Source: Sclerodactyla briareus (taxonomy: Eukaryota > Echinodermata > Holothuroidea > Dendrochirotida > Sclerodactylidae). From it: a DNA stretch of 64,000 nucleotides. The position numbers were made by a program, and so were the translations under genes. Positions 6,120 through 61,787 of this stretch are shown in pieces. The first letter of the stretch is position 1. Each line of letters begins with the position of its first letter. The stretch covers positions 10,001-74,000 of the forward strand of contig JAODTK010005853.1 of NCBI GenBank assembly GCA_026419785.1, in the 5' to 3' direction. Under the pieces are notes generated by a model. That model worked only from the letters and a program-made list of their open reading frames with translations, was not told the DNA's origin and searched no databases.

Positions 6120-8480
6120 GTGTCACCCTTCAAGGTTTTCAAATCAGAAGTCTTCCCAGTAGATTATCAGAAGAATGTATTTCGCAAAGACCGGACTGAT
6201 CATGGGTGCGGAGTTTTTCTGGCATTTAAAGATGGCTATGTCTGCATGTGGGTAATGAACTCCAAGGAACAGAGAGCAACTGGGAGGCTGTTTGGGCTGA
6301 GGTTGCTATCTCTAACCATCATCACCCCTTTACATCTGCTCCTTTTATAGACCGCCTGGCTCACGCCCAGAACCAATTAGGCAATTAGATGAAGTTATCA
6401 AGAAGGTCAATGTTAAAGGCAGCAAACACATAGTAATTGCTGGCGATATTAACTGTGGTCATATAAATTGGTCTGATACATGCGTCAGAGATAAAGCCAC
6501 TGAATCAGCTGCACATAAAGAATTACTTGCCCTTCTTAGTGACAACTTTCTGACTAACTCTCACCTTTCTCCGACTAGGGAAGGAAAACATTTTGGATCT
6601 TACCATTGACTCCAAAACCATCTTTAGTGAAGTCACAGCAGGTCATCCCTATATAAGCGACCATGACATCATTGTTATAGATTCTGAGGTGAGACCAAAG
6701 TTTAACCATCAGTTCCTAGGAAACTCTACTATAATAAACATGCTAATTGGAGTAGTATTAAGGAGGAAAAGAAAGGCTTTACCCGCCATTATGCCATGAC
6801 ATCCGGCCAGCACACGGTAGATGAAAACTGGCTACTATTTAAGAAACACTTACCCCAGATGCTCAACGAACACATTCCGTCAAGATCAAGTCAACCCGGT
6901 ATAACCTCCTTGGATGACCCCACAATTGCTAAGATCAATTAGGCGCGAGCATGGCTATACACTTGGCGAAGCGAACAACTGGTATTACCAAACAGGCTGA
7001 AAATTGGTCCGAGTGGGCAAGAAGTCTACTAAAATGGCAATTAAAAAGACACTGATTTTATTGAAAACACCATGGTGAATGCATTCAAACCATGCACACA
7101 GGAACACCTTCCCTACTGGGATTATATCAAACAACAGAAGAAGGAGGCCAGTGGTGTATCACCTCTTAAAGATCAGGTACTTTAATAGTCATAGTTGTGA
7201 CAAGGCTGAGATTATGAGCGAGCAATTAGCAATTTTTTCACACGTGACTCATGGATACCATTCCCCCCCCCCCCCAATAGTCGGTGATCCTTGCCCAGCG
7301 ATAGACCCATTACTTGTCACTTGTCCGGAGGCTGGTGTTTACGAACTGTTGTTAATGTTGTGGAATCCCGGCTTCTCCAAGGTTCGTGGGCCGGACAACA
7401 TACCAAATCGGCTTCTGAAAGAACTTTCAGTTGAATTAGCGCCAATTCTCAAATCACTGTTCAATTTCAATCATGTCTGAAGGAGTTGTGCCACAGATTG
7501 GACAAAAAATGCTAACATCGCTCCAATCTACAGAAAAGGCGATAAACATTCGGCTGCGAATTATCGTCCTGTCTTATCTTACGTGGGTCTGCTCAAAACA
7601 CTACCGGAACCAATGTTGTGAAACACATTATGTCTCATCTAGACCGTTTTGCAATCTAACAGATTTCACACGGTTTTAGGAGGAATAACTATTGTATAAC
7701 CACAACTACTTATGACAACGTCTCCCGATTTACATCACTATTACGACAATAATGTTTCAAGTTGACATGGGCATCTTGATTTGAATCAAAGTACCTTCGA
7801 TGTTGTGTCTCATCGTAAGTTGCTGGCTAAGATCAACCACTATAGTATTCGTGGTCATCTTTTCCATTGAATCGATAGTTTCTGACTCAAAGAACTCAAA
7901 GTGATGTGGTTATTGATGGTACTTCCATCAGCCCCGCTCTGTTGTTTTTTGGTTCTATAAATGATATTACCCACCAAATTGATTCTTAACTACGCCTATT
8001 TGCTGATGATGCTTCGCTATACAGGCCAATTCGCTCATTCGACGATCACCTTATTCTCCAGAAGGATCTGAAAACTCCTGAGTCCTGGGCAAAGGCATGG
8101 GATATGACATTAAATCCATCTAAATGTAAATGCTATGATGTCGATCAAGCGTAGTGGAGCCAAACCAATTTTTTCTAATTCATTATAATCATTTTTTGGA
8201 GTGTGTTATCTCACAACACTATCATCTCGTTGTCTCTCCTGAATGGAAAACTCGTCCTTTTTCTAACTCACATTGACAGTATTTGCTCAAGGCAAGTAGA
8301 ACTCTCGGGTTTCTGAATAGAAATCTGCGTTTTAATTGGCCCCCAGAAGTGCGCGAGCTTGCCCATACCTCCTGGTGCCGTTCAACCCTAGAGTATGCTT
8401 CACAATTTGGGATCCTTATAAAAAACTCTTATATAAATAAAATCGGAAGAATTCAAATAGAGCTACACGTGTGGTGATAC
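6120..8480 (+). pseudogene. Decayed non-LTR retrotransposon (endonuclease + reverse transcriptase)
   Basis: The fragments lie in the order of an APE-endonuclease/RT LINE. The endonuclease start (6126-6245) has FRKDR and a GCGVFLAFKD-type stretch. The GDxN core is at about 6440 (AGDINCGHINW), followed by DLTID and SDHDIIV (6590-6690). RT entry motifs (about 7375-7570) include RGPDNIPNRLLKEL, then IYRKGDKH and ANYRP. The polymerase palm FADDASLYR is at about 7995-8024. The C-terminal region (8283-8480) has RTLGFLNRNLR, STLEYAS and a KIGRIQ helix. The parts sit in different frames with internal stops, and the 5' end, and probably the 3' end, is missing, so it cannot encode an active enzyme. The motifs resemble the CR1/L2/jockey group, but the exact clade is uncertain. 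At 7262-7275 there is a C-run inside the element. Confidence 0.88.
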
Positions 8481-8600: not shown

Positions 8601-8655
8601 CTTGATACTCGATGAAGACGACATTACAAGTCCGTTCACCACACGGTAGTCGTTA

Positions 8656-8707
8656 GTGGTCTTTGTGGGATTAAATGTTATTGAGGAAGCAGCCTCACAA
8701 AGACCAC
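8656..8707. repeat. Perfect 12-bp hairpin
   Basis: GTGGTCTTTGTG (8656-8667) pairs exactly with CACAAAGACCAC (8696-8707) across a 28-base loop. It has no T-run, so it is not an obvious Pol III terminator. Its function is unknown. Confidence 0.6.
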
Positions 8708-8709
8708 AG

Positions 8710-9460
8710 TAGCCTTATTCCAAACCTGATTGTCCAAAATTCCGCGCGCTACGCGCGCAGACAACCTATACCCCCTGTTTCTATAGTTTTTTTTTTTCGT
8801 GGAGGATGCATTTTAAGGCAAATTCTGACGATATGAAGCTTTTATGCGAGTTTTCTCACTCAGAAACATGAGTCAGACTATTCTTCTCTCTTTTTAAAAA
8901 AATAAACTAGGTAGATTCACAATAAAATTTCCTTTGATTATAACACACACAGCGGGCGTTTTTTTGGCATACAAGGCGGATTAGGGGGAGTCCCGACTGC
9001 CTCCAACACTTATTGAAGTGACGGCAAGTTTTGCAGATCGAGGAACACCCGCCCGGGCAAATAATAGGCACAATTCGGGCAGACAAACCTGCCAAAGAGG
9101 ACAAAATGCCACAATGTCAGCAGATTGCCGATTTCTCTTGTTGAAAGCCCGATGAATGAGCAAAATTTTGTCAATCTTGTCAAGTTTGGACGTTGTGGTT
9201 TTAGTCCAAATTTCCAGAGGCCAAAATACATAACGGTAATAGGCGCTGCCTGGAAAATATTTGTCTCCCTTCATACGCCTTCAGTCTTTTAACATACTTT
9301 TGGAACAACCTTTCAAATAATTAATCACATGAACCGTGCCAAATCGCACTCTTCACTTAAGCTGTCTCGACGTAGCGGCGGAACTCAGGGGGTCAGTAAG
9401 GGGTGTCTACTCCCCGACCTTTCCCGTCTCCCCGAGCCCTCTCTTCCTTTCTTTTTTGTC
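8710..9460. other. No recognised feature
   Basis: Several overlapping short frames on the minus strand (8907-9274) have no family resemblance and overlap each other in different phases. A CGCGCGCTACGCGCGC near-palindrome is at about 8744-8758. Nothing else is supportable. Confidence 0.35.
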
Positions 9461-9468
9461 CAAGAATT

Positions 9469-9780
9469 ATGCAAAAAATTGTCCGTTTCTGTATCCTGAT
9501 AGTTGTTTCGATCGCTGTCAGTATTGTAGACCACGTGCACGATGGCTATGAGATTCCGTGCAAAATATATAAGGGGAACTCCAGGCGAGAGGCATGTTTC
9601 CTTGCATTTCTAAATATTTTTCAGACTTTCCCTAACGGTGTTTTGATGGACTTGAAAGACCTCCGTTATCATTGTTACAGTGAATTCAAAGTCTCGTCCT
9701 TGGTTGCATGTCATAACACAGCGCGGTACAGTGCACAGCGCCATTATTGCACAACTTTTCAAATATCCCTCATATCGTGA
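9469..9780 (+). CDS. Possible small secreted protein, unrecognised
   Basis: The frame opens at an internal ATG (9469) giving 103 residues. The N-terminus reads MQKIVRF followed by a hydrophobic run (CILIVVSIAVSIV), which fits a signal peptide or single membrane anchor. The remainder has six more cysteines after the hydrophobic run (in IPCK, EACF, YHCYS, VACH and HYCTT contexts), compatible with an extracellular disulfide-bonded domain. I chose this start because the upstream extension is proline- and serine-rich and crosses low-complexity sequence. No splice donor, homologue or polyA signal could be confirmed, and the flanks look non-genic. This may be a chance open frame. Confidence 0.22.
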   Translation: MQKIVRFCILIVVSIAVSIVDHVHDGYEIPCKIYKGNSRREACFLAFLNIFQTFPNGVLMDLKDLRYHCYSEFKVSSLVACHNTARYSAQRHYCTTFQISLIS

Positions 9781-9789
9781 CGAAGTCAA

Positions 9790-12480
9790 CGACCAAGAAA
9801 CCAGCATAGCCTCAGTGTGTACACGTACGTACGTGAGTTAGCGCTCATCGCCCAGAGAAGTAGCAGAAAAGCCAGTTGTCCTTTCTATCATAATTCTTTC
9901 AACAAAGAATACCTGTTAATGAGAACAAAATTGGATGCAAATTGCACTGGTGGGGATCTCCAACTCATTTCTAGTGAAGTTCTGGCCTACAAACCGATTC
10001 AGAAATATCAATCACCAGACAAGTCCAGAACATACATTGCCCACTCAATTCGGGAACTCGCCAACATTTTTTGCGAACTCGCTCGATCCGACGTTACACA
10101 CAAAGTCTATTAGAGATGCCCATTGATTGAGTGTTTTTGGCGATTCCACTGTACAAATTTCTCATTGACAGTTGTCGTAGAAGGCGCATAATCTGATTGG
10201 TCATTTTTATTCATGTGACTGCTTGTTTTTGGTCAGATTGATTTATGTCGGCAAAATCCAGTCATTTTGTTCGAAATTTTCGACAAGAAATTTGGGGTGA
10301 AAATGCTAATATAAAAGGTTAAGGGGTGTACAAATTATAAAGTATGAATTGGGTTTCGACGAGGCCATGCTAAAACTCGACTGACGTGATCAAGTAACAG
10401 TTCATAAAAAAGTTTTTGGACTGGTATAACATTGCTATCGTGGAATATTCGGTTATAATTAGCAGTCCGGTTCGCCGCTTACGTCACAATTAAGGAGGAT
10501 TCGCGATAGTCACGCTAAGATGGCGCTGTGCACAGTAGCGCTGCGTTATGGCGCATTAGCCAAAGGCGGGAAGTTTGAACTCAGTGTTTTGATCTTGGAG
10601 GGGGTCGTTCGGAGCGCTCAAAATACGGATGGAAGTGGTTTGAAACGATGCAAGAAAAGTTAGGGGAAGACTGTCTCTTGCCTGGAGTTCCTCTGCCATT
10701 TCTAGCCAGCTGAAGGCCCATTGAACAATATTAAAATCTTGCACGTCCGATTTCAACTGAACAAAAACACTCTGGCCAATGGTCCGACAAAACGAGACAG
10801 CCAAAAAATTGTGGGAGCGGTCGAGAAATTTCCTACATGTAATGCGCTATAGAAGGATATGTTACAGTGTTATTTACCGAAAAACAGGCAAGAAAATGTG
10901 GTATTCTAGCAAAGATGAGAAACAATTTTGAAATCTAGGCTTTTACAGGAAAAGACAACACAGTGCGAAACTAGCACCTTTCGAGGGTGTGGGTTCTTTA
11001 CCCCTTCATGGATGCAACAAAATTGTGATATTCCGTCAAAATTTCCATCCGACGAAAGAACCGGGTACGAGGCAAAACAGAATTTATAACCTGGGTTCTC
11101 TTGAGTCTGGATGGGTTTATACCGGTCTGAATTCCAGGCCTTCCCCTGACCCCACTGAGGACATTCGGTGGTCCCATGGAAGGTAGGCTTCAGACCAATA
11201 ACCAAAAGAAGAGAACTTACTGTCCTTGGAGGTCAGTCATTTTGGCACAAGAAATCACATTTTAGAGCATGGATTTGCACCTAAAGCCAAAACGTTTCAA
11301 TGGGACGGGTAAACCCGGAGGACCCTCTTCACAGACGCCCTAATAAATGTTAGCTCCTCGCCTAGTCAAACATGTCTTACGTCACTGCTTGCCGACAGAG
11401 TGAAAAGAAAAAAGACCTCAGTGACAGATTCGAAGTTTTACTTCTGTTGCAACATGAAATCACATGGCACTTACTAATCCGCAGGGCAAAAATTCTTCAA
11501 CCCCCCAAATAAAATCATTTTGAGTCACGCCCAGCCTGGACAGAGAGTAACTAGGCTACATTCGTTGTTCACAATTACTAATTGTAAATCCAAACTGCTT
11601 TTTTGATTTCTGGCTCAAACTTACCAATTCGCGTAGCCCTTTAAAGAGGGCAAAGTTTTTCTGAAAGAAAATTCGAGCAAAAAATGAACAATATATCCTG
11701 GGAAAATGAGACAGAAAAAAGGAAAGTGAAGGAAAGGCCTTAAAATGTCTGCGACTGGCCGGAATTTTCAATCAAGTGCCCGAAAACATGCAATTGTCCT
11801 CGCGCGTCCGCGTGCGGGTCTGTTTCTGTTCGTTCTATTTAGGCAAAACATTGTTCTGCCCTAAATTGGAAAAATTCTTGAAATTGTCTTCAGTCCACTA
11901 AGTCCAGATGCGGACACCAGGTGAAGAGCTGGACCCCACTAGGACCAAAGTCGAACGGATTAGCCATGTTTCTTACTGAGTCCAGAATTTTAAATCGAAT
12001 AGCAAAAGTGCATAAATTTCCAAGGTTTCGAACGCAAATGGCGTTTTTCTACCAGCCGTCGTGGCAATATGGATGTGTAGGAATGTGTCGAAGCAATTTT
12101 GTTCACTCAATAAATTTCTCCCCGGCCCTTCCCCCTAATTGTTTGAGATGAAAATAGGGCAAAAATTCATGGAAATTTGGGGGGAAAAAAAGCGAAGGGA
12201 AAAATGCCCTGAATTTTCAACAACACTGAAAATTCGCGCGCGCTGGTACTTCCGAATGACGGACTGAAAATCAGGCAAAAAATTTTGACCCCAAATTGGA
12301 TGGTTCCGTACGCCTATGGCTTTTCCCTCCGATTCCACAGGGACTGTGCGGTAGACCCCAGGATCCCATGCAAACAAAGTCAGAGTAAAAAAGGTAATAA
12401 AAGATACCATATGTGTATGCCATAAATCATCTTGGAATGCCAACAATGACAACTTTTGTAGTTGGCTTTTACTCAAAGCA
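9790..12480. other. No recognised gene
   Basis: About 2.7 kb of moderately AT-rich sequence. Frames on both strands (10556-10804, 10906-11205, 11556-11771, 12135-12485) show no domain, overlap frames on the other strand, and lack supporting splice signals. A TACGTCA motif is at about 10479-10485 and a GATGGCGCTGTGCAC stretch at about 10518; neither is interpretable alone. Confidence 0.35.
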
Positions 12481-12499
12481 CACATGTAGATGGGGGTAT

Positions 12500-12640
12500 C
12501 GAGGCTGGCAAATGCCTTTCCGGCGATCTAGAGGTATATGAAAAGCTAACATTCTGTGCGCGCTTCGCGCCAACCGATGGTGGCGCTCCCCTTAGATGCT
12601 CAATGGCATTACGATGGTTCCCCTCCCCCCACTTTTCAAA
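12500..12640 (-). repeat. Family A repeat, minus-strand copy
   Basis: Plus-strand order is CCTTTCCGGCGATCT, then GCGCGCTTCGCGCCAACC, ATGGTGGCGCTCC, CTTAGATGCT and a C-rich run. This is the reverse complement of the family A order (G-run, CTAAG, GGAGCGCCA, GGTTGGCGCG, CGCCGGAAAGG). Confidence 0.6.
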
Positions 12641-13160
12641 ACAGATCGACCCCATGCAGACAAGGGTGACAGATATACGAAGTCCCTAAACTGAACCACT
12701 GGAGGAAAATAGCCAGCTGTGACTCTTTCTAAAGTTATCAATTGGCATCGGTGGCAGTTCCAAATAAATTGAGACATGGTAGGCGTGGTCGCTACATTTA
12801 AATCCCCCATAAATATCGAGCCTTCCAGTACAGTTTCTTCTCGAAACTATTAGTAAGGAATAATAAAATTAAATACCTGTTAAGGAAAGCCCCAGTCCTG
12901 AAGTTGTTCAAGTCCTTGTGCCTACCCCACACAACAGTACTGGTGCTGCATGATGATTCTAAAAACACCGACATCCTCGTTGTGATACCCGAAAGGGGTT
13001 TGGTTTTTAACGAGTCGAAGCAGAAGCAGAAGAAGCAGGAAAGAAAAGGAAATCCTTGAGCGTTTTGAGTAATGCAAGATTTGGCGTCAAAACTAGCAGA
13101 CCTCTAACATATTTTTTCTCCATAACAAAGCTCACATTCAGCAATGAATGAGACTTTTGG
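12641..13160. other. No recognised feature
   Basis: Unique-looking sequence with a purine-rich (AGAAGC)n patch at about 13018-13040. No frame with recognisable content. Confidence 0.35.
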
Positions 13161-13164
13161 TGTC

Positions 13165-13620
13165 TATTGGTATGTGTTGGAGGTCAAACAAGCACTGAAA
13201 TGAATGTACTGGGGGTCTATGAATCACGTGACATTAATCCAAGATGGCGTCCAAAATGGCCCCCCTAACGCATGTTTACCAGACCCCCCCCAAAAAAGCT
13301 TCCATTTAGCCCCGAATAATACTTGTGGTGGTATGTTGTTCTGGAGGGTCAACAAATCCATTCAAGTTAAATGTGTGGAGGTCAGTGATCACCGTGACAG
13401 TAAATCCAAGATGGCGTCCAAAATGGCCGCAATAAACAGGTTTCTCCCCCCCCCCCCCCCCCCCAACAACGTTTATATTCAGCCATAGAGTCCATATGAT
13501 ATAATTATGTCTATCGACATGTTCGAGATCACCTAATTAATAAAGCCACACAACTGTTTTGGGAAATCACGTGACAATAATTTAAAGATGTCTCCTCAAA
13601 ATATGTCCTTTTGACGCCAT
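13165..13620 (+). repeat. Three-copy tandem repeat, about 170-bp unit
   Basis: CCAAGATGGCGTCCAAAATG occurs at 13239 and 13406 (167-bp spacing), each preceded by GGAGG-TCA and ATCAC-GTGAC and followed by a long C-run. A decayed third unit follows at about 13565-13610 (AATCACGTGACAATAAT then AAAGATG). The AAGATGGCG core resembles a YY1-type site (AAGATGGC), but in a repeat this is not evidence of regulation. Confidence 0.65.
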
Positions 13621-14275
13621 GCAGTCGATTCATATTATGGCAAGTATTGGAAAACCCCATAATAATTACCTGGATGGTCGCCAGAATACTTTCCGACTTT
13701 ATGTGATTGCGATATCAATAGCAAGGGTAGGGGTAAGGGTTAGTAGAAATAAAGCATGCTTGGGCATGACCCCTTCTTTTACAGTGTAGATTGCTTGACC
13801 CAGAACATACAATAGACACATTATTATCCATTTACATGAAAATATTTGTTAAAAAAGCTTTATCATGTGGACTATTTTGAACACCAGTCTGGATTTAATA
13901 ATGCCATGTGTCACTAAGAATCATCGTATTAGTTTGAGTGGTATTTAGCCCGAAACATAGCATAGACACATTAACCATCCTCATTTTTGGTGAATGAAAC
14001 CTACGGTTATGCCAAAAATTATGTGGGACATAATATTATTATTTATGGGCTCCTATGGCTGAAGGTGACATTTCAGGTTAACATAAGTGTCTCGAACTAT
14101 CTGTGCAGGAGACGCTTTAAAAAACCATTGGAGATTTGCCCAAGCAAATTGTTGGTAAATTCGACCATGGTTTATAACCAAGAGTAATAGCCCCCTCTAT
14201 TTTAAGGCACGGCTCCCCCTCATATAAGTGATGTCCTTGCCGACGTAAAAGGGATCTAATGCGACTCACGCACCT
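13621..14275. other. No recognised feature
   Basis: AT-rich sequence with a partial internal duplication (ACATA-ATAGACACATTA at about 13806 and 13957). No convincing frames. Confidence 0.35.
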
Positions 14276-17599: not shown

Positions 17600-18170
17600 A
17601 CGTGGGGTGGGGGGGGGGGGACGGGGGGGACTATTCATGATTCACTATCTAAGCGGAGCGCGACCTTTGGTTGGCGCGTAGCGTACCAAACATGTTGGCT
17701 TGTTATACCTCCCAGATCGCCGGAAATGGCACTTGCCGTTCCTAATTGCAAGCATTTAGGTGTTTCACTTTAGTGAAAGGAAAATGTTGAAGAATTGCCA
17801 CGCATCTACGACCTCTTTATATGCTTGTGAAGGAAAATGTCAGCAAGTGACTACAAACCAAATAATACCAAGAACCCACTGCAGGTGTACAATTTAGGGA
17901 CGAGGCTGACTGCGATACACTATCTAAGCGGAGCGCGACCTTTGGTTGGCGCGTAGCGTACCAAACATGTTGGCTTGTTATACCGCCCAGATCGCCGGAA
18001 GTGGCACTTGCCGTGCCTAATTGCAAGCATTAATTGTGCAATTTTAGTGAATGGAAAATGTTGAAGAATTGCCACGCATCTACGACCTCTTTATATGCTT
18101 GTGAAGGAAAATGTCAGCAAGTGACTACAAACCAAATAATACCAAGAACCCACTGCAGGTTAACAATTTG
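17600..18170 (+). repeat. Family A repeat in a 275-bp tandem duplication
   Basis: Copy 1 (17643-17917) and copy 2 (17918 to about 18165) are near-identical. Both run CACTATCTAAGCGGAGCGCG, GGTTGGCGCGTAGCGTACC, CAGATCGCCGGAA, GGCACTTGCCGT, AATGTTGAAGAATTGCCACG and ACCCACTGCAGGT. Copy 1 has a short insertion near 17758. A G-run with 'GGTGGGGG' (17605-17630) precedes copy 1, as in other family A copies. The high identity suggests a recent tandem duplication or an assembly duplication. Confidence 0.85.
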
Positions 18171-56370: not shown

Positions 56371-57726
56371 GATTTACCAGTCAGAAATGAGGCTACTAGC
56401 CATCTCAGATGAATGGCTCAGGAAATGGCTCACTCTGTATAAAACATGTTGTGTCAATATTCAGGCCAAATATTTGCCACAACAGCATGTGTAAAAAAGC
56501 AAACTTAGTTCAATTGTTCAAAATTTAATCTCAGTCCAGAATCTAGACTATGTCTCACCAATCAGTATTAGGGAGGGGGGGTTCAGGGAGATGTCATGTG
56601 GTTCCTCTCTTGCACATGGATACTCCTTTGGGCCTTCTCCTTTCCTTTTACATAGACCAAATGTTTCAATGATTTTGTCATGCAATGAGGCATAATAGTC
56701 TTCTGCGGGCATATGGTCAGCTACACTTCATGACAGACCGGATTCTACTGTAGCACTCAACTGAAAAACTAATTAATTAGATCTTTTAGATTAGATAGCC
56801 CAAATAATTTCCTAAAAGTACAGTTAAGCATAGGGCAAAACTTTCATAACCTAGCAAAGTGTGTTTCAAAGTATCCATAGTTCCTTAGGTCTAGAATGAG
56901 GGAAGCTATTGCCTCTTGAATTTAAAGGCCATTTTATGAACTATTTCACACTGGGAAGGGTTAAGTTTTGTCATTGTAAGGGGGTTGGATACCGGGCAGC
57001 TAATGTTTTTTGATGCCCAGTATCTGACCGTCCCGAATAAAACAGCTACAAAAAGTGCGGGATGAATCTTAAATGCTGTTTTAGGGCATTTTCATGGGAA
57101 ATAATTAGCTTTCATTCACTGTGGTGAAGAACAAGCGCAAGTCGAAACCGTCTTGATAGCTGCTGACAGAGAAGGTAAACACTGCTCGGCAGAGGGATGG
57201 AATCATGTAAACAACAAACCTCTGTAACAGAGAGCTAGCTCTATGGAAGTTGGAAATCCGGTAAAAAAAATTTAATTGGATTTGATTAAAATCTGATCAC
57301 ACTATTGCAAACATAAATGTAACTGCCTGCCAGTGGGAATGATTCATCCAAACACCAAGTTTTAACATGACTCGCATGTACGGTTCAGATGAAAGTTGAC
57401 GAAAGAAACGGATGAACAAACGAATTAACGGACGGACGAAAGAATCGAGCGGACGAACGGACGAGAGACTGATGGCCATGTAGAGTGCTTACCCGCAGCT
57501 AAAAAGTGCATTTAAAGAATATCTGGAAAAATCTGGAAAATTGAAATATATAATCATTATCAAATTTGCATTATTTGACCCAAAAACTGACAAAAATAAA
57601 ACTACAATAGAGCAGTGACATTCAATTTCACATAAAAAATAAAATAACAGATATTTCTGATATTTTGGTGTGGAAATTTTCCTAAGCTCGAAAAAAGGTA
57701 ACCGCAGACCAGTATTTTAGAGGAAC
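56371..57726. other. No recognised gene
   Basis: AT-rich sequence with no recognised frame; (GGACGAACG)-like purine repeats at about 57430-57460. Confidence 0.35.
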
Positions 57727-57737
57727 AATATTTTAGC
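57727..57737 (+). repeat. Left 11-bp direct repeat (target-site duplication)
   Basis: AATATTTTAGC abuts the first base of the tRNA-like array and is repeated exactly at 61777-61787, immediately after the last base. Confidence 0.75.
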
Positions 57738-57900
57738 AATTAATGATGGAGGTTGGCGTATCGGCACATACCATGATACAACTGAGAACTAACACTCACC
57801 CCCTGCGGAGATTTTATCCATGCCGAAGGTGGTTCAAATCCCAAGTCGTGGCGAACCTGGCCATTTAATCCAACGAGGGAAAGAACGTAGAGGAAAACCG

Positions 57901-57972
57901 GGTACGAGCAGGATTCGAACCGCGACCTTGTGCTTCACGTGCACACCGCTCTGCCTGCTGAGCTATCGTACT
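57901..57972 (-). tRNA. tRNA-like module L1, both Pol III boxes intact
   Basis: Minus strand: A box TAGCTCAGCAGG and B box GGTTCGAATCC are perfect. A six-pair acceptor stem GTACGA/TCGTAC, a four-pair D stem GCTC/GAGC and a T-arm loop TTCGAAT are visible. The anticodon arm can be drawn TGTGC-loop-GCACA with loop ACGTGAA, giving GTG in the anticodon position, but base 33 is C instead of T. A functional tRNA is therefore doubtful. TTTT follows 4 bases past the end, a Pol III stop. Confidence 0.5.
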
Positions 57973-58219
57973 CGACAACGCAACCGTGACTCATCCCACT
58001 CACCCTCTTTCCTCTAGCTAGGACGCCGCCAATTGAAGACTCCGCCGCATACTTACAATTAATGATGGAGGTTGGCGTATCGGCACATACCATGATACAA
58101 CTGAGAACTAACACTCACCCCCTGCGGAGATTTTATCCATGCCGAAGGTGGTTCAAATCCCAAGTCGTGGCGAACCTGGCCATTTAATCCAACGAGGGAA
58201 AGAACGTAGAGGAAAACCG

Positions 58220-58294
58220 GGTACGAGCGGGATTCGAACCCGCGGCCTTGTGCCTTTACGTGCACCCAACTCTGCCTTTCTGAGCTATCGTACT
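58220..58294 (-). tRNA. tRNA-like module L2
   Basis: B box GGGTTCGAATCCC is intact with a full GCGGG/CCCGC T stem. The A box is disturbed (CAGAAAGG in place of CAGCAGG) and the anticodon region has an extra base. TTTT downstream is kept. Confidence 0.4.
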
Positions 58295-58539
58295 CGACAG
58301 ACAGCAACCGGTGAACTCATCCCAACGCAACCCGCTTCCTCTAGGACGCCGCCAATTGAAGACTCCGCCGCATACTTACAATTAATGATGGAGGTTGGCG
58401 TATCGGCACATACCATGATACAACTGAGAACTAACACTCACCCCCTGCGGAGATTTTATCCATGCCGAGGTGGTTAAATCCCAGTCGTGGCGAACCTGGC
58501 CTTTAAAATCCACTAGGGAAAGAACGTAGAGGAAAACCG

Positions 58540-58614
58540 GGTACATCGGGATTCGAACCCGCGGCCTTGTGCTGTACGTGCCACCACTACTCTGCCTGCT
58601 GAGGCTATCGTACT
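58540..58614 (-). tRNA. tRNA-like module L3
   Basis: B box intact. An extra base sits in the A box (TAGCCTCAGCAGG) and the acceptor 3' strand is damaged (GATGTACC). Probably a pseudo-module. Confidence 0.35.
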
Positions 58615-58879
58615 CGACAGACAGGCAACCGGTGTTTTGAAATCATCCCAATCAACCCAGCTTTCCGCTAGACGCCGCCAATTGAAGACTCCGCCGCCTA
58701 CTTACAATTAATGATGGAGGTTGGCGTATCAGCACATACCATGATACAAACGGAGAGAAAACTAACACTCACCCCCTGCGGAGATTTTATCCATGCCGAA
58801 GGTCCGAAGGTGGTTCAAATCCCAAGTCGTGGGAACTGGCCATTTAATCCAACGAGGAAAGAACGTAGAGGAAAAACCG

Positions 58880-58954
58880 GCGTTTCCGAGCGGGATTCGA
58901 ACCGCGGCCTTGTGCTTTACGTGCACACCACTCTGCCTGCTGAAGCATCGTACT
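58880..58954 (-). tRNA. tRNA-like module L4
   Basis: B box GGTTCGAATCC kept. The acceptor 3' side is changed (CGGAAACG) and the A box is altered (ATGCTTCAGCAGG). The anticodon arm TGTGCACGTAAAGCACA is intact. Confidence 0.35.
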
Positions 58955-59201
58955 CGAGCCAGGCAGCAACCGGGGAACTCATCCCAAGCTCAAACCCAGT
59001 TTCCTCTAGGACGCGCCCCATTTGAAGGACTTCGCCGCATACTTACAATTAATGAGGGAGGTTGGGTACGGCACATACCATGATTAATGAGAACTAACAC
59101 TCACCCCCTGCGGAGATTTTATATCCATGCGAAGGTGTTCAAATCCCAATTCTTGGCGAACATGGCCATTTAATCCACGAGGTAAGAACGTAGAGGAACC
59201 G

Positions 59202-59276
59202 GGTACACGTATTCCGAACACCGCGGCCTTTGCTTTAAAACTTGGCACAGCCGCTCTGCCTCGAGCTAATCGTACT
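59202..59276 (-). tRNA. tRNA-like module L5, degenerate
   Basis: The B box is broken (TGTTCGGAATAC) and the anticodon arm is rearranged. Retained only by position in the array; almost certainly non-functional. Confidence 0.25.
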
Positions 59277-59527
59277 CGCATAGACCGCAACCGGTGAACT
59301 CATCCCAACTCAAACCCAGTCTGTCCTCTATGAACCGGCCGCCAATTGAAGACTCCGCCGCATACTTACAATTAATGATGGGGTTGGCGCATCGGCACAT
59401 ACGAAAAATTGAGAACTAACACTCACCCCCTGCGGAGATTTTATCCATGCCGAGGTGGCTCAATCCCAAGTCGTGGCCGAACCTGGCCATTTAAATCCAA
59501 CTAGGGAAGAAACGGAGATTGAAAACC

Positions 59528-59600
59528 GGTACCGAGCAGGATTCGAACCCGCGGCCTTGTGCTTTACGTGCACACCGCCGCCTTGCTGAGCTATCATACT
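59528..59600 (-). tRNA. tRNA-like module L6
   Basis: B box GGGTTCGAATCC intact, anticodon arm TGTGCACGTAAAGCACA intact. The A box is nearly intact (TAGCTCAGCAAGG), with one acceptor-stem change. Confidence 0.4.
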
Positions 59601-60003
59601 CGACAGACAGCAAACCGGTAACTCACCAACTCACCACCAGCTTTCCTCTAGGACGCCGCCAATTGAATACTCCGGCCCACCCTTCCAAACCTTAATGATG
59701 GAGGTTGGCGTATCAGCACATACCCTGATACACACAACTGAGAACTAACACTCACCCCCTGCGGAGATTTGCCATGCCGAAGGTGTTTCTAATCCCAACG
59801 TGACGAACCTGTCATTTAATCCACCGAGGGGAAGAACGTAGAGGAAAACCGGGTACGAGCGTACCCGGTTTTCCGGTTGTCCCATGGTAGTGCCGTACGC
59901 AACCTCCATCATTAATGGTAAGTATTCGGCGGAGTCTTCCAATTGGCGTGCGCCTGAGGAAAGCGGGTTGAGTTGGGATTAGTTCACCGGTTCGGTCCTG
60001 TCG

Positions 60004-60074
60004 AGTTACATAGCTCAGCGGCAGAGCGGTGGGCACGTTAAGCACAAGGCCGCGGTTCGAATCCCGCTCGTACC
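60004..60074 (+). tRNA. tRNA-like module R1
   Basis: A box TAGCTCAGCGGC, B box GGTTCGAATCC. The acceptor 5' side is altered (AGTTACA) against an intact TCGTACC. TTTT at about 60078-60081. Confidence 0.4.
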
Positions 60075-60323
60075 CGGTTTTCCTCTACGTTCTTTCCCTC
60101 GGTGGATTAAATGGCCAGGTTCGCCACGACTTGGTATTTGAAACCACCTTCGCATGGATAAAATCTCCGCAGGGGGTGAGTGTTAGTTCTCAGTTGTATC
60201 GATGGTATGTGCCTATACGCCAACCTCCATCATTAATTGTAAGTATGCGGCTGATCTCAAATTGCGGCGTCCTAGAGAAAGCTGGGTTGAGTTGGGATGA
60301 GTTTCACCGGGTTCTGTCTGTCT

Positions 60324-60393
60324 AGTACGATAACAGCAGTCAGAGCGGTGTGCACGTAAAGCACAAGGCCGCGGTTCGAATCCCTCTCGTACC
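60324..60393 (+). tRNA. tRNA-like module R2
   Basis: Acceptor stem AGTACGA with TCGTACC, B box GGTTCGAATCC and anticodon arm TGTGCACGTAAAGCACA are intact. The D-arm/A box has a two-base loss (TAACAGCAG). Confidence 0.4.
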
Positions 60394-60633
60394 CGGTTTT
60401 CCTCTACGTTTTTCCTCTTGGATTCAATGGTCCATGTTCGCCACACTGGGATTTGAACCACCTTCGGCATGGATAAAATCTCCGCAGGGGGGGATTGTTA
60501 GTTCTCAGTTGTATCAGTATGTGCCGATACCCACCTCCATCATTAATTGTAAGTATGCGGCGGAGTCTTCAATTGGCGGCGTCCTAGAGGAAAGCTGGGT
60601 TGAGTTGGGATGATTTCACCGTGCTGTCTGTCG

Positions 60634-60710
60634 AGTACGATAGCTCAGCAGGCAGAAGCGGTTTGTTGCACGTAAGCACAAGGCCGCGGGCTTCGAATTC
60701 CCGCTGTACC
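60634..60710 (+). tRNA. tRNA-like module R3
   Basis: A box TAGCTCAGCAGG perfect. There are insertions in the anticodon arm and in the B box (GGGCTTCGAATTCCC), typical of the one-base length errors throughout the array. Confidence 0.35.
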
Positions 60711-60956
60711 CGGTTTTCCTCTACGTTCTTTCCCTCGTTGGATTAAATGGCCAGGTTCGCCACGACTTGGGATTTGAACCACCTCGGCATGGATAAAATC
60801 TCCGCAGGGGTTGAGTGTTAGTTCTCAGTTGTATAATGGTATGTGCAGATACGAAACCTCCATCAGTTAATTGTAAGTATGCGGCGGAGTCTTCAATTGG
60901 CGGGCCTAGAGGAAAGCGGGTTGAGTTGGGATGAGTTCACCGGTTTGCTGTCGTCG

Positions 60957-61028
60957 AGTACGATAGCTAAGCAGGCAGAGCGGTGTGCACGTAAAGCACA
61001 AGGCCGCGGTTCGAATCCCGCTCGTACC
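60957..61028 (+). tRNA. tRNA-like module R4
   Basis: Acceptor AGTACGA/TCGTACC, anticodon arm and B box GGTTCGAATCC intact. The A box has one change (TAGCTAAGCAGG). One of the best right-arm modules; TTTT follows at 61031. Confidence 0.45.
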
Positions 61029-61274
61029 GGTTTTCCTCTACGTTCTTTCCCTCGTTGTATTAATGGCCAGGTTCTCCAACGACTTGGGATTTTGACACCT
61101 TCCGGCCATGGATAAAATCTCCGCAGGGGGTGAGTGTTAGTTCTCAGTTGTATCATGGTATGTGCCGATACGCCAACCTCCATCATTAATTGTAAGTATG
61201 CGCGTAGTCTTCATGCGGCGTCCTAGAGTAAAGCTGGGTTTGATTTGGGATGAGTTCACCGTTGCCTGTCGTCG

Positions 61275-61346
61275 ATACGATAGCTCGCAGGCATAGCGTG
61301 TGCACGTAAGCACAAGGCCATGGTTTTTTCGAAACCCGCTCGTACC
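61275..61346 (+). tRNA. tRNA-like module R5, degenerate
   Basis: The B box is replaced by GGTTTTTTCGAAACC, with an early T-run that would end Pol III transcription. One base is missing from the A box. Non-functional by inspection. Confidence 0.25.
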
Positions 61347-61584
61347 CGGTTTTCCTCTACGTTCTTTCCCTCGTTGGACTAATGGCCAGGTTCCCACGCT
61401 TGGGATTGAACCCCCTTCGGCTGGAGAAATCTCCGCAGGGGGTGAGTGTTAGTTCTCAATTTTTCGTATGTGCCGCTACGCCAAATCCATCATTAATTGT
61501 AAGTGTGCGGCGGAGTCTTCAATTGGCGCGTCCTAGAGGAAAGCTGGGTTGAGTTGGGATGAGTTCACCGGTTGCTGTCTGTCG

Positions 61585-61655
61585 AGTCCGATACTCAGCA
61601 GGCAGATCGTGTGCACGTAAAGCACAAGGCCGCGGGTTCGAATCCCGCTCGTACC
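61585..61655 (+). tRNA. tRNA-like module R6
   Basis: T arm GCGGGTTCGAATCCCGC and acceptor TCGTACC perfect. The A box lacks one base (TACTCAGCAGG). Anticodon arm TGTGCACGTAAAGCACA intact. TTTT at about 61659. Confidence 0.42.
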
Positions 61656-61776
61656 CGGTTTTCCTCTACGTTCTTTCCCTCGTTGTATTAAATGCCTGGT
61701 TCGCCAAGACTGGGATTTAACCACCTTCGGCATGGATAAAATCTCCGCAGGGGGTGAGTGTTAGTTCTCAGTTGTA

Positions 61777-61787
61777 AATATTTTAGC
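61777..61787 (+). repeat. Right 11-bp direct repeat (target-site duplication)
   Basis: Exact copy of AATATTTTAGC found at 57727-57737. Confidence 0.75.

Follow-up and report, generated by a model that had tools for sequence, protein, structure and literature searches.

Mobile elements of several kinds leave insertions built of repeated units or of segments in opposed orientations. The foldback DNA transposons FB and Galileo of Drosophila have inverted arms of tandem repeats; part of the published account of Galileo describes F copies with tandem repeats of ~210 bp within the inverted termini, and a target-site duplication (TSD) of 7 bp (PMC3573991). Animal retrozymes, which are non-LTR (non-long-terminal-repeat) elements of 150–450 bp, have TSDs longer than 4 bp and range from dimers to 62-mers in Acropora, according to an excerpt of PMC7229834. 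Among short interspersed nuclear elements (SINEs) derived from transfer RNA (tRNA), nearly half of the Dip copies of jerboas are tandem multimers of up to eight units (PMC10702118, in part), so multimerisation alone is not new. For 5′ inversion, a feature of twin-primed long interspersed nuclear elements (LINEs), the portion of PMC2912911 drawn on here gives 639 of 2068 L1 copies in humans and chimpanzees, against 1 of 5554 Alu copies and 4 of 477 SVA copies. Here we describe a 4-kb block of tRNA-like tandem units, arranged in two opposed arms, in a 64-kb window (the whole stretch of DNA analysed; G000:C3096:10001-74000) from the holothuroid Sclerodactyla briareus, together with its relatives in the genome searched (319 Mb in 3171 contigs). 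We conclude that a tRNA-headed, SINE-like family probably gave rise to the block in one recent retro-insertion, copied from a multimeric RNA by two-ended priming that resembles twin priming.

The window contains exactly two copies of the 11-bp sequence AATATTTTAGC (0.05 occurrences expected), and both abut the outer ends of the block without a gap, as the sequence-only reading of this DNA had stated. None of 300 random right-hand flanks matched equally well, and none of 200,000 random 11-mer pairs drawn from the flanks of the block was identical. Between these copies, Tandem Repeats Finder reports two arrays of 319-bp units, 6.5 copies on the left (57737-59861) and, inverted relative to them, 6.0 copies on the right (59884-61776), where 6.5 had been claimed for each arm. 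The tRNA-like sense strand runs outward in both arms, with the 3′ sides at the borders and the 5′ sides meeting centrally; because the sense strand of the left arm is the minus strand, the 3′ end of the element is the left border. The left arm starts with AATTAATG (phase −2 to 1 of the unit), and phase 38 is where the right arm stops. At the centre lies a hairpin with 15-bp arms and a 2-nt loop, and just past it the right arm resumes ~110 nt away in unit phase. The arms are opposed in orientation but are not mirror images of each other: in mirror register they share 0.27 non-consensus states per 100 columns, against 0.59 over all arm pairs. The earlier description of the block as a palindrome therefore holds for orientation and fails for sequence, as the arms end at different phases and show no excess of sharing in mirror register. 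That lack of excess also speaks against one arm having been templated by the other in mirror fashion.

Genome searches with the block unit and an older relative placed the family in at least 43 other positions (one search scored 40 of 57 candidates). We read 40 of these, leaving out C22, C2228 and C2899, and copy numbers are lower bounds. With the block, this makes 41 loci, equivalent to 40 independent ones because L042 and L044, as the two arms of a single inverted duplication on C2865, count once. Two subfamilies are separable, a young one (the block, L009, L010, L011 and L024) and an older one. Exact TSDs flank four of the five young copies, with 11 bp at the block, 9 bp at L009, 9 bp at L011 and 12 bp at L024; the fraction of random flanks matching equally well (n = 300) was 0, 0.007, 0.01 and 0, respectively. 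That other young copies carry duplications of their own, of 9–12 bp, upholds the proposal that the block entered as a single mobile insertion. A close counterpart is L011, a 263-bp inverted copy that starts with AATTAATG, ends at phase 39 and has its own 9-bp TSD. The suggestion that the same boundaries would recur between different flanks is thus nearly borne out, in this one copy. Outward 3′ ends together with a TSD, features of twin-primed insertions, are present in both the block and L011. L024 is a 72-bp 3′ fragment, which is the pattern expected under 5′ truncation.

Inversions recur across the family. Both orientations are present in 10 of the 41 loci and a single orientation in 31, so the copies are not all plain head-to-tail arrays, an outcome that would have spoken against the sequence-only reading. 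L023 shows both orientations at looser thresholds only and stands outside the count of ten, and L027 is an internal inversion with a different layout. Among the 40 independent loci, inverted copies that face outward number 8, and counting L023 brings them to 9. As one possibility the same reading had named a foldback-type element; in a foldback DNA transposon, a transposase would act on internally repetitive inverted termini. The family shares tandem-unit arms and a target duplication with FB and Galileo, and the Galileo F termini described in PMC3573991 likewise contain tandem repeats, but its outer ends are unequal in both the block and L011 (AATTAATG versus phase 38–39), its TSDs vary in length (9, 9, 11 and 12 bp, against the 7 bp given for Galileo) and most of its loci have one orientation only. 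A foldback origin in the FB or Galileo sense is, on these grounds, very improbable.

The copied molecule was longer than one unit. The unit boundary is crossed in 24 of the 41 loci (a scripted count), and the 5′ ends of family copies lie at many unit phases. Copying of a fixed-end monomer would not yield this number of boundary-crossing loci; the template of the family, probably an RNA, was therefore a head-to-tail multimer of the ~320-nt unit. The unit itself resembles a tRNA-derived SINE. Its tRNA-like part is degenerate and passes the Rfam tRNA cut-off at four places of the block (29.7–35.3 bits). By ARAGORN its anticodon is inconsistent (His, unassigned, Cys and Tyr), which qualifies the claim of a tRNA-like gene in each unit. 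The A and B boxes for RNA polymerase III (pol III) are both present in the young consensus. The 3′ end of the unit reads CCAACCTTACATCAGTA in old copies and CCAACCTCCATCATTAA in young copies. The family thus has the tRNA-like head, the two boxes, the multimers and the TSDs (here 9–12 bp in young copies) of tRNA-derived SINEs such as Dip and the reptile SINE-derived satellites. It differs from them in its many start and stop phases, in the frequent crossing of unit boundaries (24/41) and in the presence of both orientations in 10/41 loci, and the defined monomer 5′ end at the tRNA head that marks such SINEs was not found.

Units could also derive from rolling-circle reverse transcription of a small circular RNA, as in retrozymes. 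The few-hundred-bp unit, the tandem multimers and the TSDs longer than 4 bp match the animal retrozymes of PMC7229834 (as excerpted). Within each of the insertions L039 and L012, the two units have almost all of their substitutions in common (24 of 27–29 and 12 of 13–14), although they differ from other copies. That pattern is possible with a circular RNA and with a homogenised tandem source; local expansion could explain it too. In L013 (part), L026, L028, L041 and L048, units differ within an insertion to roughly the same degree as between insertions. Moreover, in the block a variant is common to units a6 and b6 and missing from the other units, so a one-unit circle was not the template of the whole block; judged by these unit comparisons, it fits neither the block nor those five loci. 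A ribozyme search of the block returned neither a hammerhead nor another ribozyme (the best match, Twister-P5, scored 15.3 bits against a cut-off of 37.6, E 9.9), and the nine other family loci searched likewise gave none; an old unit, read by eye, contains a hammerhead core-like string without an adjacent stem II. We do not class the family as retrozymes because no hammerhead was found, and it differs from them also in its tRNA-like head. Rolling-circle reverse transcription of a small circle is therefore an unlikely source of the units. We regard as similarly doubtful a ribozyme-free, tRNA-headed analogue of retrozymes, in which the ~320-nt unit would exist as an RNA circle or as rolling-circle multimers, with tRNA-type processing perhaps leading to circularisation. 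Both ends of a break would then prime on this RNA, each at one of two preferred starts, and inverted multimers would be a regular product.

The borders of the family copies bear on how the multimer might be integrated by priming from two ends. The 3′ borders have two preferred phases, −4 to 5 in 14 of 49 cases and 27 to 44 in 15 of 49; the 49 phases were entered by hand, with L027 read by eye and L042 left out, and the 27–44 bin was picked post hoc, so that its binomial figures are descriptive only. Runs of (TA) of at least 8 are found no more than 40 bp from the border in 18/50 cases at the 3′ side and 2/32 at the 5′ side, compared with 19/1609 positions in the background. These runs, which may represent tails generated by slippage or a target preference, accompany the 3′ borders of L013, L014, L017, L018, L019, L021, L023, L025, L027, L030, L032, L033, L035, L036, L037, L044, L045 and L047. 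A (TC)n repeat adjoins L031 and L035.

The outward-facing copies fit priming from both ends of a break, on one RNA or on two. In the old copies L014 and L015, one arm ends at exactly the phase where the inverted segment begins (gap 0), which suggests twin priming on a single RNA at these two loci. A gap of at most 1 nt was found in 2 of 18 pairings, with 0.17 expected (P 0.012); the pairings combine nine inverted copies with both choices of first arm, and the arm phases were entered by hand. With twin-primed LINE-1 the family shares outward 3′ ends, 5′ sides that meet, a TSD and, in L014 and L015, exact adjacency on the template. It differs in that a non-coding, tRNA-headed multimer replaces the LINE mRNA, in the (TA)n near many of its 3′ ends and in that adjacency is not general.

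Several observations weigh against retro-insertion by this route. The young copy L010 has no exact TSD. When 16 old loci were tested for TSDs (L030–L049, 20 loci, were left out of the test), only L021 reached p < 0.05, and its match is a (TA) repeat. Adjacency of the segments is not significant at wider limits (≤5 nt in 2/18, P 0.13; ≤25 nt in 5/18, P 0.15), and the segment gaps of the block itself, −133 or −42, are non-adjacent; twin priming on one RNA is therefore not established. Inversion is nearly absent from Alu and SVA in the cited portion of PMC2912911. The old unit of L014 matches the B box only, and the young consensus has TTTT 2 nt past the tRNA-like part, which, on sequence grounds, should weaken full-length pol III transcripts. 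No partner LINE was identified, no search aimed at one having been made, and the partner enzyme of the family is putative.

Two-ended priming on a multimer would account for the arrangement of the block. An enzyme acting in trans, probably a LINE-type or Penelope-type reverse transcriptase, would nick the target, and the template would be a head-to-tail multimer of the ~320-nt unit. The left break end would prime copying at the 3′ end of the element, and the right break end would prime a second copy at an internal preferred site near phase 38; a single RNA could serve for both copies, as in twin priming, or each could have its own. Central joining of the resulting complementary DNAs (cDNAs) would follow, and this step could have left the short central hairpin as a snap-back patch. 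Two-ended priming followed by joining would yield arms with outward 3′ ends and the 11-bp target duplication.

The quality of the assembly sets limits on how finely the block can be read. Its units differ by more insertions and deletions (indels) than substitutions (94:67 in the left arm, 83:50 in the right), and of 375 non-consensus column states 276 are singletons versus 99 shared. In the 21 family loci compared, indel levels run from 0.3 to 7.0%, intermediate values included, at similar levels of substitution (L015 has 0.3% indels at 5.3% substitutions, L020 6.1% at 7.6%), and in 19 copies of an unrelated dispersed repeat, the window copy included, they range from 1.9 to 7.9%; neither set of figures is a reference for natural indel rates. 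Because the unrelated repeat shows them too, the indel-rich unit differences are probably assembly error resembling that of uncorrected long reads. This noise makes the number of units and the centre of the block uncertain, and the border topology is safer than either. An error-prone reverse transcriptase as the cause of the indels was set aside as unnecessary, given the similar spread in the unrelated repeat and the difference between L015 and L020 within the family. Elsewhere in the assembly, where a contig begins, L050 and L051 (G000:C2865:154-5235 and 8623-13752) form an inverted duplication of 5 kb whose copies are separated by a 3.4-kb spacer. Identity is 80.7% in the main piece, which has 332 gap openings versus 394 mismatches; the duplication resembles uncorrected long-read sequence and is perhaps a chimera.

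The opposed arms themselves might then be an artefact, produced when a noisy long read folded back at a missed adapter or when a gap was wrongly filled. Such an origin would agree with the excess of indels in the block, with their spread in the family and in the unrelated repeat, with the indel-rich inverted duplication on C2865 and with the 32-nt hairpin at the junction, where the two arms share a unit phase. Had a read folded back, however, the sequence beyond the right arm would be the left flank in complement; it is instead a different sequence, which carries the second TSD copy. Nor does the mirror register show an excess of shared variants. Both orientations also occur at other loci, including L015 with only 0.3% indels, and L011 has nearly the same two ends elsewhere with its own 9-bp TSD. 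We therefore give an artefactual palindrome little credence: the foldback read artefact against which the sequence-only reading had cautioned finds no support at the right flank, although the assembly does hold indel-rich sequence.

The features of the block are collected in Table 1. An uninterrupted target site, which had been proposed as a further check, was not found: among the 40 of 925 candidates scored, a genome search with the left flank (641-nt query) gave only matches to a dispersed repeat, at query positions ~25–414. This high-copy repeat (57124-57513) ends ~220 bp before the block. Elsewhere in the window, 17639-18169 is a 274-bp tandem duplication of 1.9 copies that are 94% alike with hardly any indels, and 6900-7900 holds a dispersed repeat with at least 47 genome matches, counting itself (59 candidates, of which 40 were scored). 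The open reading frame (ORF) at 7079-7480 looks by eye like a piece of a LINE and has no Pfam match; the Pfam search of six window ORFs gave no match.

Table 1 Coordinates of features of the block (positions in the window)
Feature	Position	Strand	Remark
Left TSD copy AATATTTTAGC, 11 bp	57727..57737	.	Exact match
Left arm, ~6.5 units of ~319 bp	57738..59861	-	Tandem array
tRNA-like head, best score of the left arm	57900..57972	-	35.3 bits, cut-off 29
tRNA-like head	58219..58294	-	34.2 bits
Variant TACGAAAAATTGAGAAC in unit a6	59400..59416	-	Common to unit b6, not mirror unit b2
Arm junction: 32-nt hairpin, then ~110-nt phase jump	59843..59874	.	
Right arm, ~6.0 units, outer (3′) border at phase 38	59875..61776	+	
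tRNA-like head	60957..61029	+	35.0 bits
Variant TACGAAAAATTGAGAAC in unit b6, as in a6	61452..61468	+	
tRNA-like head	61585..61656	+	29.7 bits
Right TSD copy, 11 bp	61777..61787	.	Exact match

The ingredients of this family are known; their combination is unusual for a tRNA-type repeat, and a limited literature search turned up no account of tRNA-headed multimers that are frequently inverted. If retro-insertion of a multimeric RNA by two-ended priming is the correct account, a striking ‘palindrome of tRNA genes’ can arise from ordinary steps of retrotransposition, a tRNA-headed, non-coding element would act like a LINE at integration, and the family would offer a natural system for the study of two-ended priming and of the origin of multimeric templates.

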